Below are positions 11,984 through 29,947 of a DNA stretch of 64,000 nt, piece after piece. A program made the position numbers and the translations under genes. Position 1 is the stretch's first letter, and the number at the start of each line of letters is the position of its first letter. The notes under the pieces are model-generated. The model was not told the origin of the DNA. It did not search any database and saw only the letters and a list, made by a program, of their open reading frames with translations. This stretch comes from an uncultured Chloroflexota bacterium (GTDB lineage Bacteria > Chloroflexota > Dehalococcoidia > Lucifugimonadales > UBA1127), in the NCBI GenBank assembly GCA_913045315.1, contig CAJWQJ010000001.1:1-64000 (forward strand), in the 5' to 3' direction.

Positions 11984-12391
11984 CTACGCCTTAGATCTTT
12001 TATCCAGAGCTTCAAGAGCAACTCTACAAATTGCTTCAGGAAGGCTTTCAGAACAAACTGTACTGTTTATACTCTTATCTGTTACAGTCACGCACCAAGC
12101 TATTTCATTGTTTGTGTTTTCATTTTCTGTTGAAGAATTTTCTACATGAACTCTCATGCCATAGGAAATCAATTTTTCAAGCACACTCCATGCAGCCTTG
12201 ATTTCGGAGCTGTATTTGGGTAGAGGTTTAGAGTTCAAAACCGCATTGTTCCAGACGGATCCCTTTGGTAAGTAGTAAGGTATTTGCTTTTTTATCCCCG
12301 GATAAAAAAGCTCGTTAACACCCATGACATTCGAAGCAACAGAACTATTAAGTTGGTAATCTTCACTTGTGTTTATTGTTTGTTTCTTCAT
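11984..12391 (-). CDS. Phage ABA-sandwich-like domain protein (orphan)
   Basis: A 135-residue soluble protein. The C-terminal half reads as a helix with AAWSVLEKLISYGMRV, a WCVTVTD strand, and LPEAICRVALEAL. That pattern is typical of the small 'phage ABA sandwich' domain found in phage and some chromosomal proteins. The N-terminal 55 residues are polar and unrecognised. GAGGAG precedes the ATG. No other phage genes are near, so it is an isolated remnant or a domesticated copy. Family assignment is from pattern memory. Confidence 0.6.
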   Translation of the reverse strand: MKKQTINTSEDYQLNSSVASNVMGVNELFYPGIKKQIPYYLPKGSVWNNAVLNSKPLPKYSSEIKAAWSVLEKLISYGMRVHVENSSTENENTNNEIAWCVTVTDKSINSTVCSESLPEAICRVALEALDKRSKA

Positions 12392-12465
12392 TTGGTCTCC
12401 TCGGATACAATGATAATGTATACCCTAAATTAATAACTTTTTGCAAGAATATTCTTTGGGAAATT

Positions 12466-13512
12466 ATGGAATCAAATAGACAAAATTATCATCTTCCTGA
12501 CAATTTCATTAAATATCAAGATATAATTCAGCAATCATTACGTCCAGCACTTAACTTAAATCCTGAAGAATTAAATCTTTTAGGCCATTATCAGATGGGG
12601 TGGGTAGATGAAAAAGGAAATACATCGATTGGGTCATCTGGAAAAGCACTTCGACCTTCACTATGTCTGCTTGCATGCGATGCTGTTGGTGGTTCAATAG
12701 ATCATGCCATTCCATTGGCGATAGCACTAGAAATAATCCATAACTTTTCACTTGTTCACGATGATATTCAAGATGAAGATCTTCTTAGGCGACATCGGCC
12801 AACTGTCTGGGCTCTATGGGGAAAAAAATTAGCATTAATTGCAGGAAATGCTATGAGGACATCGGCTGACATGAGTGTATATTCACTCCAATCCTTGGGA
12901 TCTACTTCAAGTCATATTTTATATGCAATAAATCAGTTGACAGAGCGATATTTAGAAATGATCGAGGGACAATATCAAGATATAAGCTTCGAGCAACGTA
13001 CAAATGTTTCTACTCAAGAATACCTTGATATGGTAGAAAAAAAGACAGGTTCCCTCATTGAAGCTTCCCTTCATATGGGTGCATTCGCAGGAAATGCATC
13101 CTTTGAACAAGTCTCAGCGCTAGGAAAATTTGGAAGGTTAATCGGATTGGGTTTCCAGGTAAGAGATGACATGCTAGGTATATGGGGAAGTACGGAAACT
13201 ACTGGAAAGGGACATGGTTCTGATATCAATAGGAAAAAGCAGGCATTACCTGTACTTTATGCTTTTGAAAACGGTAACGATTTAACAAAGAGAAAAATGG
13301 CCGAAATTTATAGCAAAGACATGTTGACACCTTTCGATATTTCAGAGGCTATACAACTTCTGGATGAAGTACGTGCAAAAGAATATTGTCAACAAGTTGC
13401 TGAGGAATACATGAATCAAGCTCTAAATGCTTTAAAAGACGCAAAGCTAACTGAGAAATGGGAAATAACATTCGAACAGTTAGCCAATTTTATGGTTTTG
13501 AGAGAATTCTAA
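12466..13512 (+). CDS. Polyprenyl diphosphate synthase (FPP/GGPP type)
   Basis: This trans-isoprenyl diphosphate synthase condenses isopentenyl diphosphate with allylic diphosphates. The first aspartate motif appears as LVHDDIQDED followed by RRHRPT; the second region is VRDDMLGIWG with GSDINRKKQALP. Both resemble short-chain (C15-C20) synthases. The ATG at 12466 gives 348 residues; an in-frame TTG about 99 bases upstream would run across the divergent gene and has no family support. It stands shortly before the squalene genes and plausibly supplies their farnesyl diphosphate. Confidence 0.9.
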   Translation: MESNRQNYHLPDNFIKYQDIIQQSLRPALNLNPEELNLLGHYQMGWVDEKGNTSIGSSGKALRPSLCLLACDAVGGSIDHAIPLAIALEIIHNFSLVHDDIQDEDLLRRHRPTVWALWGKKLALIAGNAMRTSADMSVYSLQSLGSTSSHILYAINQLTERYLEMIEGQYQDISFEQRTNVSTQEYLDMVEKKTGSLIEASLHMGAFAGNASFEQVSALGKFGRLIGLGFQVRDDMLGIWGSTETTGKGHGSDINRKKQALPVLYAFENGNDLTKRKMAEIYSKDMLTPFDISEAIQLLDEVRAKEYCQQVAEEYMNQALNALKDAKLTEKWEITFEQLANFMVLREF

Positions 13513-14656: not shown

Positions 14657-15547
14657 ATGAGCTTAAGTGAAAAAGAGTTGCTTCAAAAAGCCTACTCAGA
14701 ATGCATAAAGCTTGCTAAAAATCATTATGAAAATTTCACTGTTCTAAGTTCTTTGATCATTCCTAAGAAATTACGACACCATATAGCTGCTATATACGCA
14801 TACTGTAGAACAGTTGATGATCTTGGTGATGAATCTCATGGAAACAGACTTGAGCAATTAGCTATATGGGAAAAGGATTTTCTTAAATGCTACAACGGAA
14901 AGCCAGAAAATATATATCTAATCGCCTTACAAGAAACAATTACTACATTTAATCTGCCTAAGGAGCCATTTCTCAAACTGATAATAGCAAACAAAATGGA
15001 TCAAACAAAAATAAGATATGCCAATTTTGAAGAACTATTAAACTATTGTGATCACTCTGCAAACCCAGTTGGCGAACTCTATCTAGCCTTGCATGGATAC
15101 CGAGACTCTACGCTAAAGAAATTGTCTAACTTTGTGTGTACAGGATTACAATTAACAAACTTCTGGCAAGATGTGAAACGTGACTACCTTCGCGACAGAA
15201 TATATATACCTGCTGAAGATATGGCTTTTTTTCATGTAAAGGAATCCGACTTGGGAAGAGAAAAATCAGGATCAAACCTATGTGAGCTTATTGAATACCA
15301 AATAAAACGAACCAAGAATTATTTTGAAAAAGGAACTTCTTTGTTGGATCACCTAAAAGGTGATGATTTTAGAAGCAACGAAAAACTAAATTTGCTGTTA
15401 TTTATACTCGGTGGGCAAAGTATCATCAAAGCAATTGAACAACAGCAATTTGATGTATTAACCAAGAGGCCAAAAGTGAGAGAATTACAAAAATGTTGGA
15501 TATTAATAAAGGCTTGGTCTTCTCTAAAATTTAGCAGGCGAATTTAA
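14657..15547 (+). CDS. hpnC: Squalene synthase subunit HpnC (hydroxysqualene synthase)
   Basis: In the HpnCDE route, HpnD makes presqualene diphosphate from two FPP, HpnC converts it to hydroxysqualene and HpnE reduces that to squalene. This 296-residue protein has both aspartate-rich motifs of the squalene/phytoene synthase fold: YCRTVDDLGDE near residue 50 and FWQDVKRDYLRDRIYIP near 171. It is followed 13 bases later by its paralog hpnD. Gene order and the presence of a FAD partner support the Hpn reading over phytoene synthase. Confidence 0.9.
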   Translation: MSLSEKELLQKAYSECIKLAKNHYENFTVLSSLIIPKKLRHHIAAIYAYCRTVDDLGDESHGNRLEQLAIWEKDFLKCYNGKPENIYLIALQETITTFNLPKEPFLKLIIANKMDQTKIRYANFEELLNYCDHSANPVGELYLALHGYRDSTLKKLSNFVCTGLQLTNFWQDVKRDYLRDRIYIPAEDMAFFHVKESDLGREKSGSNLCELIEYQIKRTKNYFEKGTSLLDHLKGDDFRSNEKLNLLLFILGGQSIIKAIEQQQFDVLTKRPKVRELQKCWILIKAWSSLKFSRRI

Positions 15548-15560
15548 GGAGACTAAACGC

Positions 15561-16460
15561 ATGACGTTCGAATACCCAAAAAGCCCACTCTCGACAAGTA
15601 AATCATATGAGTTTTGTAAAAAACTCACTAAAAGGGAAGCAAAGAATTTTTACTATGCATTCCTTACGCTACCTTACCATCAACGTCTTGCTGCATTTTC
15701 AGGTTACGCTTTTTGCCGCATTTGTGATGATGCAGTAGATGAGCCTGGAACAAATGATGAAAAAAATCGTGAAATTACTATGCTTCATGAACAACTCGAA
15801 AATGCCAAAAAGGGAATTTTTGAAAATCCTGTATTTCAAGCACTAGAAGATACTACAAAAAACTTTGCCGTTCCATGGGAATATTTTGAAACCATTTTAG
15901 AAGGAATGAGTATGGATATTCATATCTCAAGATATTCGGATTTTGATGAATTAAAAAGGTATTGCTACAACGTTGCATCCATTGTTGGTCTTATATGCAT
16001 CGAAGTTTTTGGGTATAAAGACCCAAAAGCAAAAATTCACGCTATTGACTTAGGGCTAGGCATGCAACTCACTAACATCATTAGAGACATATCCGAGGAC
16101 GCTAAAATGGGTAGAATCTATATCCCCCTCGATGAAATCAAGGATTTTGAATATTCCGAGAAAGAACTTCTGAGTGGAGTATACAATGAAAAATTCATAC
16201 TCCTTATGGAATATCAATTGCAACGTGCAAGAATGTACTTGAATAGTGGAAAATTACTCTTGCAGCATCTACCAAAACGTTCTAGAGCTTGTCCACTTAT
16301 TCTTTTAGAATTCTATAATGCTATTTTAGATCGTATAGAAAAACAAAATTATAACGTTTTTAGTAATCGCATCTCTCTATCGACACTTGAGAAAGGTTTT
16401 CTGGCAATTCGATTATGGATACGAAGTTTTTTACCAATAAAAAAAGACCCCATTGTGTGA
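15561..16460 (+). CDS. hpnD: Presqualene diphosphate synthase HpnD
   Basis: This 299-residue paralog of the preceding gene product has FCRICDDAVDEPG near residue 55 and IIRDISEDAKMGRIYIP near 177, the substrate/Mg-binding Asp motifs of the family. The second motif, RDISEDA-x-GR, is the classic presqualene/phytoene synthase form, in keeping with HpnD catalysing the head-to-head FPP condensation. An AAGGAG site precedes the ATG. The 3' end overlaps hpnE by 46 bases if hpnE begins at 16415. Confidence 0.9.
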   Translation: MTFEYPKSPLSTSKSYEFCKKLTKREAKNFYYAFLTLPYHQRLAAFSGYAFCRICDDAVDEPGTNDEKNREITMLHEQLENAKKGIFENPVFQALEDTTKNFAVPWEYFETILEGMSMDIHISRYSDFDELKRYCYNVASIVGLICIEVFGYKDPKAKIHAIDLGLGMQLTNIIRDISEDAKMGRIYIPLDEIKDFEYSEKELLSGVYNEKFILLMEYQLQRARMYLNSGKLLLQHLPKRSRACPLILLEFYNAILDRIEKQNYNVFSNRISLSTLEKGFLAIRLWIRSFLPIKKDPIV

Positions 16461-17815
16461 TTGTTGGAGGTGGCGTTGCAGGTCTTTCAGCCGCCTGCCA
16501 TTTAACTAATATGGGATGGCGAATTACCTTACTAGAAAAACGACCATTTCTTGGAGGAAGAGCATATTCATTCCTTGACCCCATAATGGGTACTGAGATA
16601 GATAATGGCCAACATGTGTTTTTGGGGTGTTGTTCTGAATATATAAATCTTATCGACACTTTAGGAGGTTTAAACGATGTATACATTCAAACCTCCTTAA
16701 GGGTTCCGATTGTGCTCAGAGAAAGGAACAGTTACATATACAGTGTTAACTGGCTTCCTACTCCATTGAATTTGCTGCCATCTCTAATAACCTACAAACA
16801 TCTCGCGTTAAGTGATAAGGCAAGAATATTTACTGCCTTATCCAAAATTTTCTTTGTAAATATCAAAAAGAACAAAACCTACTTGGAAAACATGACTTTT
16901 GAAAAATGGTTGTCAGAAAATTATCAGAAAACTTCTTCCATAATGCCATTTTGGGACTTGATAATTAAAGCGACATTAAATAGTTCGTGTGAAAAGGTTA
17001 GTGCCTACATGGGTACGAGGATTTTTAAAGAAGGGTTTCTGCATTATAAAAATGGTGGGAATATCGGATATTCGAAAATAGGACTAAGCAACCTCATATC
17101 AAAGAATATTCACCAAATCTTATCAACGACAGGCGGTGAAATCCTTACTAACGCTGAGGTTAGTGGAATACTAACAGACAATGAATTGGTGACAGGTGTT
17201 TCCTTGCGAAACACAAACAAGCATTCAGTGCACAAGATTGAGTCTGATGCTGTAATTAGTGCTATCCCATGGGACAAAATAAATTTAATTGCACCTCAAA
17301 GCAATTCAATGGAAACAAAAAAGGTTTTTAGCACTCCCGCACTGACCCATGGGTCTATTATAACTCTACATATCTGGCTTAATAAGCCAGTAATGAATTC
17401 TGATTTTATTGCAATTTTAGGAAGTGAATTGCAATGGATTTTTAACAAAACCAAAATGCATGAAACCGCTTCAAATGGTCAGCAACTAACTATTTCAATT
17501 AGTGATGCAGAAAAATACATGTCTTGGTCCAAAAAAACTCTCCGAAATTTCTTTATTGAAGAATTAATCAAGTCATTCCCATCAATAAATGAAACAAACA
17601 TTGTTCGTTTTCTAGTAATAAAGCACCCTCAAGCCACATTTATTTCAAAGCCCGGTGTTGAAAATATACGTTATCCACAAAAGACTTCATTCAAAAATTT
17701 GTATTTTGCTGGGGACTGGACGAACACAGATTGGCCATCTACTATGGAATCTGCAGTTATAAGTGGTCGGTTAGCCGCACAACAACTAAATAACCTTATA
17801 ATGGAAACTAAATAA
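16415..17815 (+). CDS. hpnE: FAD-dependent squalene-forming oxidoreductase HpnE
   Basis: A 466-residue flavoprotein of the phytoene-desaturase-like amine oxidase family. The dinucleotide fold is VIVGGGVAGLSAACHL with LLEKRPFLGGRAYSF. The C-terminal FAD segment is LYFAGDWTNTDWPSTMESAVISGRLAAQQL. It reduces hydroxysqualene to squalene in the HpnCDE pathway. The start is uncertain: ATG at 16415 overlaps hpnD by 46 bases, while an in-frame GTG at 16457 would give a 4-base overlap (GTGA) and begin directly at the nucleotide-binding strand. No squalene-hopene cyclase is in the window. Confidence 0.9.
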   Translation: MDTKFFTNKKRPHCVIVGGGVAGLSAACHLTNMGWRITLLEKRPFLGGRAYSFLDPIMGTEIDNGQHVFLGCCSEYINLIDTLGGLNDVYIQTSLRVPIVLRERNSYIYSVNWLPTPLNLLPSLITYKHLALSDKARIFTALSKIFFVNIKKNKTYLENMTFEKWLSENYQKTSSIMPFWDLIIKATLNSSCEKVSAYMGTRIFKEGFLHYKNGGNIGYSKIGLSNLISKNIHQILSTTGGEILTNAEVSGILTDNELVTGVSLRNTNKHSVHKIESDAVISAIPWDKINLIAPQSNSMETKKVFSTPALTHGSIITLHIWLNKPVMNSDFIAILGSELQWIFNKTKMHETASNGQQLTISISDAEKYMSWSKKTLRNFFIEELIKSFPSINETNIVRFLVIKHPQATFISKPGVENIRYPQKTSFKNLYFAGDWTNTDWPSTMESAVISGRLAAQQLNNLIMETK

Positions 17816-20318: not shown

Positions 20319-20456
20319 TCCAACTCAATATAAAATATTTCAAATACAATTACTGCAGGAATCAGATAATTTATTGTACGGGCAGAAATATCTTAACAAA
20401 ATTCCGTTTTAAAGGTAATGTTGGTGTTTATAACCCAGAACAATATAATCCAATAA

Positions 20457-21647
20457 ATGGAAGAGCAAAAAATCTCAAACAGCATATTTGACCAAGCAAA
20501 AAAATATATTCCTACGTACTTAAATTTCAATCAAACCCCAATGGCCGAACTTCCTTTTATATCTAGAGGAAGAGATTCAAGGATTACTGACGCAGATAAC
20601 AAAACATATATTGACTATGTCTGTTCAAACGGGGATTTAATTCTTGGCCACGCTAACTACCGGGTGGTAAGTGCTATAAGAGATATTGCACTGAATGGGT
20701 TTGCGTTCGGATTTCCTTATCCGCTAGAAATTGAGCTGGCTAAAATGATTGCAGAACTAGTTCCCTCAGTTGATCAAATTCAATTATTAAATTCCCCAGA
20801 AGACGCACAGGCATTAGCAATTTTATTAACAAAAGCCTACGCTAGAAAAGATAACGTTCTTGTAATATCAAATGATGATTCTGCCCATCAAAATATCGAT
20901 AAATTACATTTCTACGCGAAATACAACGATTTGTCATCACTAGAACAAATTATTACAACTAACAAAGAAAAAATAGCTGCCATATTAGTTGAACCTATTC
21001 CTACGTCGCCAGAATTTTTAATTCCGGAACAAACATTTTTACTCAAACTTCGTGATATAAGCAAAAAAAACAATATTATTCTAATTTTTGATGAATCAAA
21101 AAGTAATTTCCGCATAGGAATCGGCGGTGCTCAAAGTATTCTTGAGGTAACGCCTGATCTTACAATTTTTGGTGGATTGATTGGGGGTGGTTTACCCTCA
21201 GGAGCTCTGGGGGGGAATTTTGAATTAATGAGTCTACTAGATAATTCAATGATTTCGAGAAGACATTCTCTGAATCTGAGCCCGTTGGCTCTGGCAGCTG
21301 GAATAGAAACAATTACTGAACTATTAAAACCTGATACATATTTAATCTTACAAGATCTAGCCAAGCATCTTGAAAACGGATTTCAGTGGATAAAAAATGA
21401 ACATAACTTGCCAATTGAAATCAAACGATTCCATTCTTTTTTTTCAATATCATTTCCAACGGAAAATTCACCTTGGCCCCAAGGTTTCATTTATAATTTT
21501 TTTGCAAAAATGCTTTCATTAGGTCATTACATTCCAGTTCCTAATTCGCATCCTTGGTATATATCATTATCTCATACGAAAAAAGAAATAGAATCGACCA
21601 TTGATGCAGCAAATGAAGTTTTGCGAAATAAATCCGCTCTTACGTAA
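20457..21647 (+). CDS. Class III aminotransferase-fold protein lacking the PLP lysine (GSA aminomutase-like)
   Basis: The 396-residue protein aligns along its length with glutamate-1-semialdehyde aminomutase (HemL): RITDADNKTYIDYVC, GHANYRVVSAI, FDESKSNFRIGIGGAQ, IGGGLPSGALGG. Key residues are lost. The Schiff-base lysine of the LGK-x-IGGG motif is glycine (G240 in IFGGLIGGG). The phosphate-binding NSGTEA is NSPEDA (112-117), and the YHGH loop reads SAHQN. The pyridine-nitrogen Asp (D212) remains. The frame is intact with no stop codons, so this looks like a maintained pseudoenzyme with a non-transaminase role. It converges with trmL, overlapping by 8 bases. Confidence 0.85.
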   Translation: MEEQKISNSIFDQAKKYIPTYLNFNQTPMAELPFISRGRDSRITDADNKTYIDYVCSNGDLILGHANYRVVSAIRDIALNGFAFGFPYPLEIELAKMIAELVPSVDQIQLLNSPEDAQALAILLTKAYARKDNVLVISNDDSAHQNIDKLHFYAKYNDLSSLEQIITTNKEKIAAILVEPIPTSPEFLIPEQTFLLKLRDISKKNNIILIFDESKSNFRIGIGGAQSILEVTPDLTIFGGLIGGGLPSGALGGNFELMSLLDNSMISRRHSLNLSPLALAAGIETITELLKPDTYLILQDLAKHLENGFQWIKNEHNLPIEIKRFHSFFSISFPTENSPWPQGFIYNFFAKMLSLGHYIPVPNSHPWYISLSHTKKEIESTIDAANEVLRNKSALT

Positions 21648-28540: not shown

Positions 28541-29947
28541 ATGCCGGATAATTCCATTTTGAAAAGACGCATATACCCATTAGACCCGAGAGAGCTGAGT
28601 CAAGAGGAATTAGCCGTGGTATTTGCAATGACTTCGAGAAGGCCTGAAGCTTTTGACGAAATTCGCGATTTGGTAAATATTGAAAAGGCGGCTGATTTTA
28701 ATGAAAGATGGGTTCTCGGATACGGACATTCGTCCGTCGCTGAGCACGCTGTATTACATATAGCTTTTGAAAACATTTCCCGTCTTGCTTGCGATACATT
28801 AGAGGACAATCGTTTAGCATCATACACAGAAAAATCCAGTAGATATCAAGTTATTGGAGCTGGATCTTATCATGTACCATCTGAACTTATAGAAAAAAGC
28901 AATGTTCGACGTGAATATATTGAAACCTGTGACAAATTATTTGCAGCATACGAACAACTACTTAACAACCTTCAATTTCATTTGAGCAAAACTACCCCAC
29001 AAGGTCCGAAAGAACGAGATGGTGCATATCGATTACGATTACGACGTGAAGCTACGGATACATGTCGATTTATTTTGCCTGCCTCAACCTTAACCAACGT
29101 TGGTGTAACCATGAATGCCCGTTCAGTAGAGCATGCTGTACGAAAATTACTTTCTTCTGAACTGCTGGAGGAGCAAGCAATTGGCTCTGAGTTTAAAGCA
29201 CAAGCCCAATCAATTACTCCAACTCTTGTAAGATATGCAGATCCAAATGTGTATCTTAAAAAAAGCAGATCCAACATACAAGAAGATGCCGAAAAAAATC
29301 AGGTTGTGAATTCATCGATAAACCGTGCACCTTCTGGTGTTTCAGCAAAATTGGTTAACTTTGACAATGATGCTGAATCTCGGCTTTCAAAAGTATTACT
29401 ATATCGGAATTCAGATATGTCTTACGAACAAATCTCTGAAAAAGTTGACAACTTATCATATGAAAATCAAATTCAGGTGATTACAAATGCTTTGTCTGAA
29501 ATAGGGCCACACGATGCTCCAGTTCGTGAACTGGAGCAGATTGAATACACATTTGAATTGTGTTTAGATTACGGAGCATACAGAGAATTTAAACGCCATC
29601 GAATGCAGTCATATTTACCTCAAAATCTCCACGTAAATGAAGGGTTTGTTATCCCCCCATTGATAGAAGAGGCAAATTTACTAGATGCATATACTCATGC
29701 AATTGAATTATCCGATTCTAACTTTGACTCTCTTTCCAAAATTTCTCCTAGATTAGCAGAATATATTGTTACTCATGGTCATATAAGAAGAGTACTCACA
29801 AAAATTAATCTACGCGAGTGTTACGCCTTATTTAAATTAAGGGTTCAAAGCCAAGCGCACTTCACTATCCATGATGCAATGAATCAAGCTCTAAAGCAGA
29901 TTGAAGAAGTTCACCCATTCTTAATACAATTTATTCAATTGCGATGA
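28541..29947 (+). CDS. thyX: Tandem ThyX-domain protein (flavin-dependent thymidylate synthase-like)
   Basis: The 468-residue protein contains two consecutive ThyX-like domains. The N-terminal half has GYGHSSVAEHAVLHIAFENISR, a signature where RHR is replaced by DNR (DNRLASYTEKSSRY, 89-102), then LPASTLTNVGVTMNARSVEH. The C-terminal half has PVRELEQIEYTFELCLDYGAYREFKRHRMQSYLP, where RHR (352-354) is kept but the distal S-x-R-Y is lost, and a final INLRECYALFKLR. The usual ThyX is about 220-250 residues with one RHR-x7-S motif. The signature is thus divided between halves. It is probably the cell's dTMP source, but activity is not certain. GAGGAG precedes the ATG. Confidence 0.82.
   Translation: MPDNSILKRRIYPLDPRELSQEELAVVFAMTSRRPEAFDEIRDLVNIEKAADFNERWVLGYGHSSVAEHAVLHIAFENISRLACDTLEDNRLASYTEKSSRYQVIGAGSYHVPSELIEKSNVRREYIETCDKLFAAYEQLLNNLQFHLSKTTPQGPKERDGAYRLRLRREATDTCRFILPASTLTNVGVTMNARSVEHAVRKLLSSELLEEQAIGSEFKAQAQSITPTLVRYADPNVYLKKSRSNIQEDAEKNQVVNSSINRAPSGVSAKLVNFDNDAESRLSKVLLYRNSDMSYEQISEKVDNLSYENQIQVITNALSEIGPHDAPVRELEQIEYTFELCLDYGAYREFKRHRMQSYLPQNLHVNEGFVIPPLIEEANLLDAYTHAIELSDSNFDSLSKISPRLAEYIVTHGHIRRVLTKINLRECYALFKLRVQSQAHFTIHDAMNQALKQIEEVHPFLIQFIQLR

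Follow-up and report, generated by a model that had tools for sequence, protein, structure and literature searches.

A probable HemL-derived pseudoenzyme in a Chloroflexota genome apparently without tetrapyrrole synthesis

The protein encoded at positions 20457-21647 of the 64,000-nucleotide stretch of DNA analysed here (the window), which comes from an uncultured Chloroflexota bacterium, is probably a pseudoenzyme, a relic of a lost heme pathway that has been kept for a non-catalytic role. It derives from HemL but carries a glycine in place of the Schiff-base lysine, and its other losses cluster in the active site, whereas the frame is intact and the predicted fold is complete. We put at roughly 60% the reading that it is the hemL remnant of a lineage without tetrapyrrole synthesis, whose fold has been kept for a non-catalytic role. 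Few PLP fold type I proteins are without the lysine, and our search of the open-access literature found no described HemL pseudoenzyme. The case is a singleton in one draft genome.

Results

The frame consists of 396 codons from an ATG start and contains no internal stop. The top-ranked NCBIfam models for its product are those of HemL, but the scores, 269 bits against NF000818 (curated cut-off 398) and 255 bits against TIGR00713 (curated cut-off 527), do not reach the cut-offs, and we therefore regard the protein as HemL-derived and not as a recognised HemL. The class III aminotransferase model PF00202 is matched at 113 bits, above its gathering score of 30.5, and among solved structures the nearest in sequence are those of GSAM. 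The initial annotation had called the product HemL-like, and a HemL origin is supported in that HemL is the best family, though below the cut-offs. The codon-position GC of the gene resembles that of the neighbouring genes. A leaderless-promoter signature ahead of the start (Table 1) was considered and rejected, since TANNNT is no commoner at that place than in shifted controls (4 vs 5-8 among the 38 ORFs of the window).

Table 1. Features of the HemL-derived gene and its product, with positions in the window.
Feature	Position	Strand	Basis
Possible leaderless start: TATAAT 7 bases ahead of the ATG, no Shine-Dalgarno-like motif	20443..20456	+	
HemL-derived 396-aa frame, predicted non-catalytic (pseudoenzyme)	20457..21647	+	profile, alignment, fold model
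Residues 20-27, TYLNFNQT replacing HemL GGVNSPVR (substrate side); model pLDDT <50 over 14-31	20514..20537	+	
Residues 57-60, SNGD replacing SWGP, Trp to Asn	20625..20636	+	alignment
Residues 112-117, NSPEDA replacing the phosphate loop NSGTEA	20790..20807	+	alignment
Residues 141-144, DSAH replacing YHGH, then junction of an in-frame deletion of about 30 residues (gate loop)	20877..20888	+	
D212-E213, Asp facing the PLP ring nitrogen in HemL retained	21090..21095	+	alignment
G240 codon at the Schiff-base lysine position	21174..21176	+	alignment
Residues 267-275, SRRHSLNLS replacing YQAGTLSGN (loop reaching the partner subunit's phosphate site)	21255..21281	+	
H365 replacing the conserved C-terminal Glu	21549..21551	+	

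The residues of the protein were compared with a reference alignment of 33 order-level HemL proteins, all of which (33/33) carry the Schiff-base lysine (K284 in L043, K269 in L007) at the position of G240. The alignment bears out both the exchange of this lysine for glycine and the change of NSGTEA to NSPEDA that had been read from the letters alone, and no alternative lysine aligns at the PLP site. K215, in the motif DESK, was considered as a substitute and rejected, as it aligns to the Ile of DEVITG, away from the Schiff-base position. The YHGH loop, which had been described simply as changed, has suffered more than this, because the next 30 or so residues, which form the GSAM gate, are deleted as well. 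The mobile gate comprises residues 153-181 in Synechococcus GSAM (PMC3747428). Beyond the changes that were first noted, losses extend to the segments GGVNSPVR, SWGP, AGNMGV (here PTSPEF), DEVITG (here DESKSN, with the Asp kept) and YQAGTLSGN and to the C-terminal Glu. With the exception of the gate loop, the contacts that we presume these replaced segments to make with cofactor or substrate are those generally known from GSAM structures. The motifs GGAQ, PDLT, GGGLP and IFDE are retained. With the Schiff-base lysine, the phosphate site and the gate gone, established PLP chemistry would make an internal aldimine impossible and aminomutase or transaminase chemistry very unlikely. The alignment thus supports the loss of PLP chemistry that had been proposed, with losses wider than stated.

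An AlphaFold2 model, computed from an input alignment of seven sequences, has a mean pLDDT of 78 and a pTM of 0.82, and its low-confidence stretches are the former active-site loops (residues 14-31, 57-60, 141-143 and 264-272). The best Foldseek matches of the model are GSAM (E about 1e-34), and VIA-align superimposes it on 2hoy_A with Z 44.8 and an rmsd of 2.2 over 363 aligned residues. A complete GSAM fold is thus predicted over the full length of the protein; the predictor's alignment contained HemL relatives, so that the model shows compatibility with the fold and is not a proof of it. Together with the 396 residues and the absence of a stop, this prediction agrees with the view of the initial annotation that the gene is a full-length, intact frame with the fold motifs in place.

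To what extent the gene has decayed can be read from the 135 HemL columns that are at least 95% invariant, of which 64 are kept, 59 substituted and 12 deleted. Only 10 of the 53 invariants in active-site segments are kept, as against 54 of the 82 elsewhere (Fisher p=8e-8, or 2e-6 when deleted columns are left out), although the active-site segments, while based on what is known of GSAM, were delimited once the alignment had been viewed, which makes the p-value somewhat flattering. The loss of invariants is far beyond chance in its extent and non-random in its placement. Outside the active site, many glycines, all aligned invariant Asp residues and most hydrophobic columns are kept. We then simulated neutral evolution from the HemL consensus, under several base compositions, until the same number of invariants had been lost. 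Such runs accumulated 8.5-12 stops on average, and 5.7-7.9 when they were clocked by the non-active-site invariants alone, whereas the gene has none, and no base composition that was used gave zero stops in more than 1 of 300 runs. The neutral route to the observed loss takes about 200-350 substitutions and should leave about 6-12 stops. Indels were absent from the simulations, so that survival of the frame under neutrality would be rarer still. As a test of selection, the retention of hydrophobic core columns (66 of 75) is weak and was set aside, because it lies high in the neutral range (mean 60, maximum 69) but still within it. Purely neutral decay of the gene is unlikely, and the simulations reject it in agreement with the earlier statement that this is not a decayed copy; weak or recently relaxed selection would still be compatible with the data. 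Purifying selection on a non-catalytic form is suggested by the missing stops and the pattern of retention, not by dN/dS. The window's copy carries neither frameshift nor stop.

Neither 250 genomes of the order nor 393 genomes of the class yielded a lysine-less relative. One scan each of genome_contigs and viral_contigs revealed no close relative, the former returning only six distant class III loci, and the highest-scoring other match (203 bits) is L036, a HemL of the ordinary kind that has the lysine. One 130-kb viral contig (L092, 1393-2652; IMGVR_UViG_3300030331_006142) encodes a lysine-bearing HemL-like aminotransferase of 419 aa beside a 283-aa ORF. In the tree the protein sits on an end branch of 9.5 changes per site, which makes its placement unusable and leaves vertical descent and transfer indistinguishable. 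Five genomes of a sister genus in the same family all have HemC and an intact HemL (5/5; scores of 657 against NF000818 and 608 against TIGR00713), clustered with hemA where this was read; in one of them (G002) the genes run in the order hemL ... xth ... cobA/hemD-hemC-hemA-cysG-ahbAB. The sister-genus locus L078 (9829-19329) holds hemL with hemC, hemA, cysG and the siroheme decarboxylase genes ahbAB. The window's gene shares no neighbours with these hemL clusters, and TrmL, its 3' neighbour, is absent from them. Ferrochelatase is likewise absent from all five sister-genus genomes, so that one family appears to hold two heme strategies, ferrochelatase in the window's genome versus ahbAB without ferrochelatase in the sister genus. 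Three reduced genomes of the order (G052, G057 and G073, about 87-90% complete) give no HemL-grade match.

The window belongs to an assembly of 1.45 Mb in 32 contigs that is 89.4% complete, and the gene lies in the interior of a 189-kb contig. Three class III aminotransferases match above cut-off in this genome: an ArgD-like protein, a HemL-like protein of 452 aa on contig C6 and the protein described here. The C6 protein (L083, 9126-10481) has kept the lysine and scores 355-360 bits, below the HemL cut-offs; no other protein of the genome is closer to the lysine-less one (44% over residues 154-338). A profile search for a normal hemL elsewhere found none above cut-off in the 89.4%-complete assembly. 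The same assembly yields no HemA above cut-off, with two partial matches below it, and zero matches to HemB, HemC and HemE. Ferrochelatase (HemH) and COX1 are both present. On contig C8 (L088, 6921-10705, minus strand) the ferrochelatase gene adjoins genes for an ABC ATPase, a FecCD/BtuC-type permease and a substrate-binding lipoprotein. For the ATPase the top-scoring model is that of a heme transporter, and the binding protein is a weak IsdE match, none of them above a curated cut-off, and a heme or porphyrin uptake operon is a plausible interpretation of this cluster. The simplest reading of the gene content is an organism that may have no tetrapyrrole synthesis and may import heme or porphyrin. 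In the sister genus hemL, hemC, hemD and hemA lie in one cluster, so that a single assembly gap could hide several genes, including a true hemL; the absence of HemB and HemE as well makes this less likely, though still possible.

Several other genes of the window deserve a brief description. A polyprenyl synthase gene (12367-13512) lies upstream of two genes of the squalene/phytoene synthase family that are followed by one for the hydroxysqualene dehydroxylase HpnE (14657-17815; 340 bits, above cut-off), and these last three genes likely make up an HpnC-HpnD-HpnE squalene route. The ThyX-family protein encoded at 28541-29947 contains two Thy1 stretches; at 468 aa it is roughly double the normal length, and its score falls short of the NCBIfam thyX cut-off. 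The 611-aa protein encoded at 24868-26703 matches nothing in NCBIfam, and its one match, to RNase_H_2 at the C-terminus, is below threshold.

Discussion

Compared with HemL/GSAM (TIGR00713, NF000818; structures 2hoy, 2gsa, 3bs8 and 3k28), the protein shares the whole fold at 30-36% identity, but it is without the Schiff-base lysine, the phosphate loop and the gate loop, the substrate residues are replaced, and the genome around it is apparently without the pathway. The seeming loss of heme synthesis accounts for the freedom of the active site to disappear. The lineage would have stopped making tetrapyrroles and would now take up heme or porphyrin, with the substrate supply (HemA) and the product user (HemB) gone in an order of events that is our reconstruction, and the PLP and substrate residues and the gate loop would then have been free to change. 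The fold may have been kept because the protein gained, or already had, a non-catalytic role. Frame and predicted fold point to a binding, scaffold or partner protein, most likely, in our view, a binding or scaffold protein that forms (homo)dimers around an open, emptied pocket; we infer that it dimerises and does not bind PLP. The ligand sensor or binding protein that was proposed at the outset is no more than one of several guesses. It seems unlikely, though conceivable, that the protein still serves heme or porphyrin homeostasis in a heme-scavenging bacterium as a non-catalytic binding protein or regulator, for example as a sensor of tetrapyrrole precursors or a regulator of an uptake component.

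The explanation that competes most directly is a slowly decaying relic, which became superfluous when the heme pathway was lost and under relaxed selection has so far escaped stops and frameshifts in this strain. Such a course would fit the apparently missing pathway, the very long branch and the three reduced genomes without a HemL-grade match, outright loss being the usual end in the order. The stops that so many neutral substitutions should have left are missing, however, the losses fall mainly in the active site while glycines, the invariant Asp residues and most hydrophobic columns persist elsewhere, and the codon-position GC remains like that of the neighbours, all of which makes slow decay unlikely, if still worth keeping in mind. 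An assembly artefact or a foreign contig, conceivable in a draft of 32 contigs, is scarcely credible for a gene inside a 189-kb contig with its neighbours' codon-position GC, in which the differences are dozens of substitutions within one open frame and do not amount to one join.

The protein could also assist an active class III aminotransferase, as its regulatory or structural partner, and the C6 protein, the nearest paralogue and one that keeps its lysine, would be the only HemL-like candidate in the genome. PLP fold type I offers an established precedent, since in eukaryotic serine palmitoyltransferase the lysine-less LCB1 is the partner of its active, lysine-bearing paralogue LCB2 (PMC3794620). 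As in LCB1, the cofactor lysine is missing from an intact gene of this fold, but LCB1 has a known lysine-bearing partner and belongs to a different subfamily, whereas C6 is a candidate only. The two genes moreover lie on separate contigs without common hem context, the active site of the C6 protein is complete in itself, and the loop that would serve a partner's site is rewritten and poorly predicted (264-272), so that we consider such a partnership improbable. Still more improbable is an enzyme that uses its cofactor without the lysine, in the manner of ColD, a PMP-dependent dehydratase of the sugar aminotransferase family in fold type I in which Lys has become His. The retained ring-facing Asp would suit such an enzyme, GSAM itself works from the PMP form, and the Lys-to-Arg mutant of the related PctV has been crystallised with PMP (4zm4). 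ColD-type dehydratases share the missing lysine but have an otherwise preserved cofactor site, as do the known Lys-less PMP enzymes, whereas in this protein the losses also include the phosphate loop and the gate, the Trp, the YHGH segment and the loop that reaches the partner subunit.

As in heme-auxotrophic, genome-reduced aquatic bacteria, the early tetrapyrrole genes are missing from the assembly of the window's genome and a heme-using oxidase is kept. A 2024 survey reports that heme biosynthesis is absent from euphotic SAR202 (PMC11245477); the likeness lies in the absence of heme genes and does not assign the window's genome to SAR202. The other HemL-less genomes of the order drop hemL, whereas this one keeps an altered copy. 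If the case is real, loss of a pathway would have freed an enzyme for a non-catalytic role, while relatives dropped the gene outright. A HemL match in a reduced genome need not signify ALA synthesis, which calls for caution in annotation.
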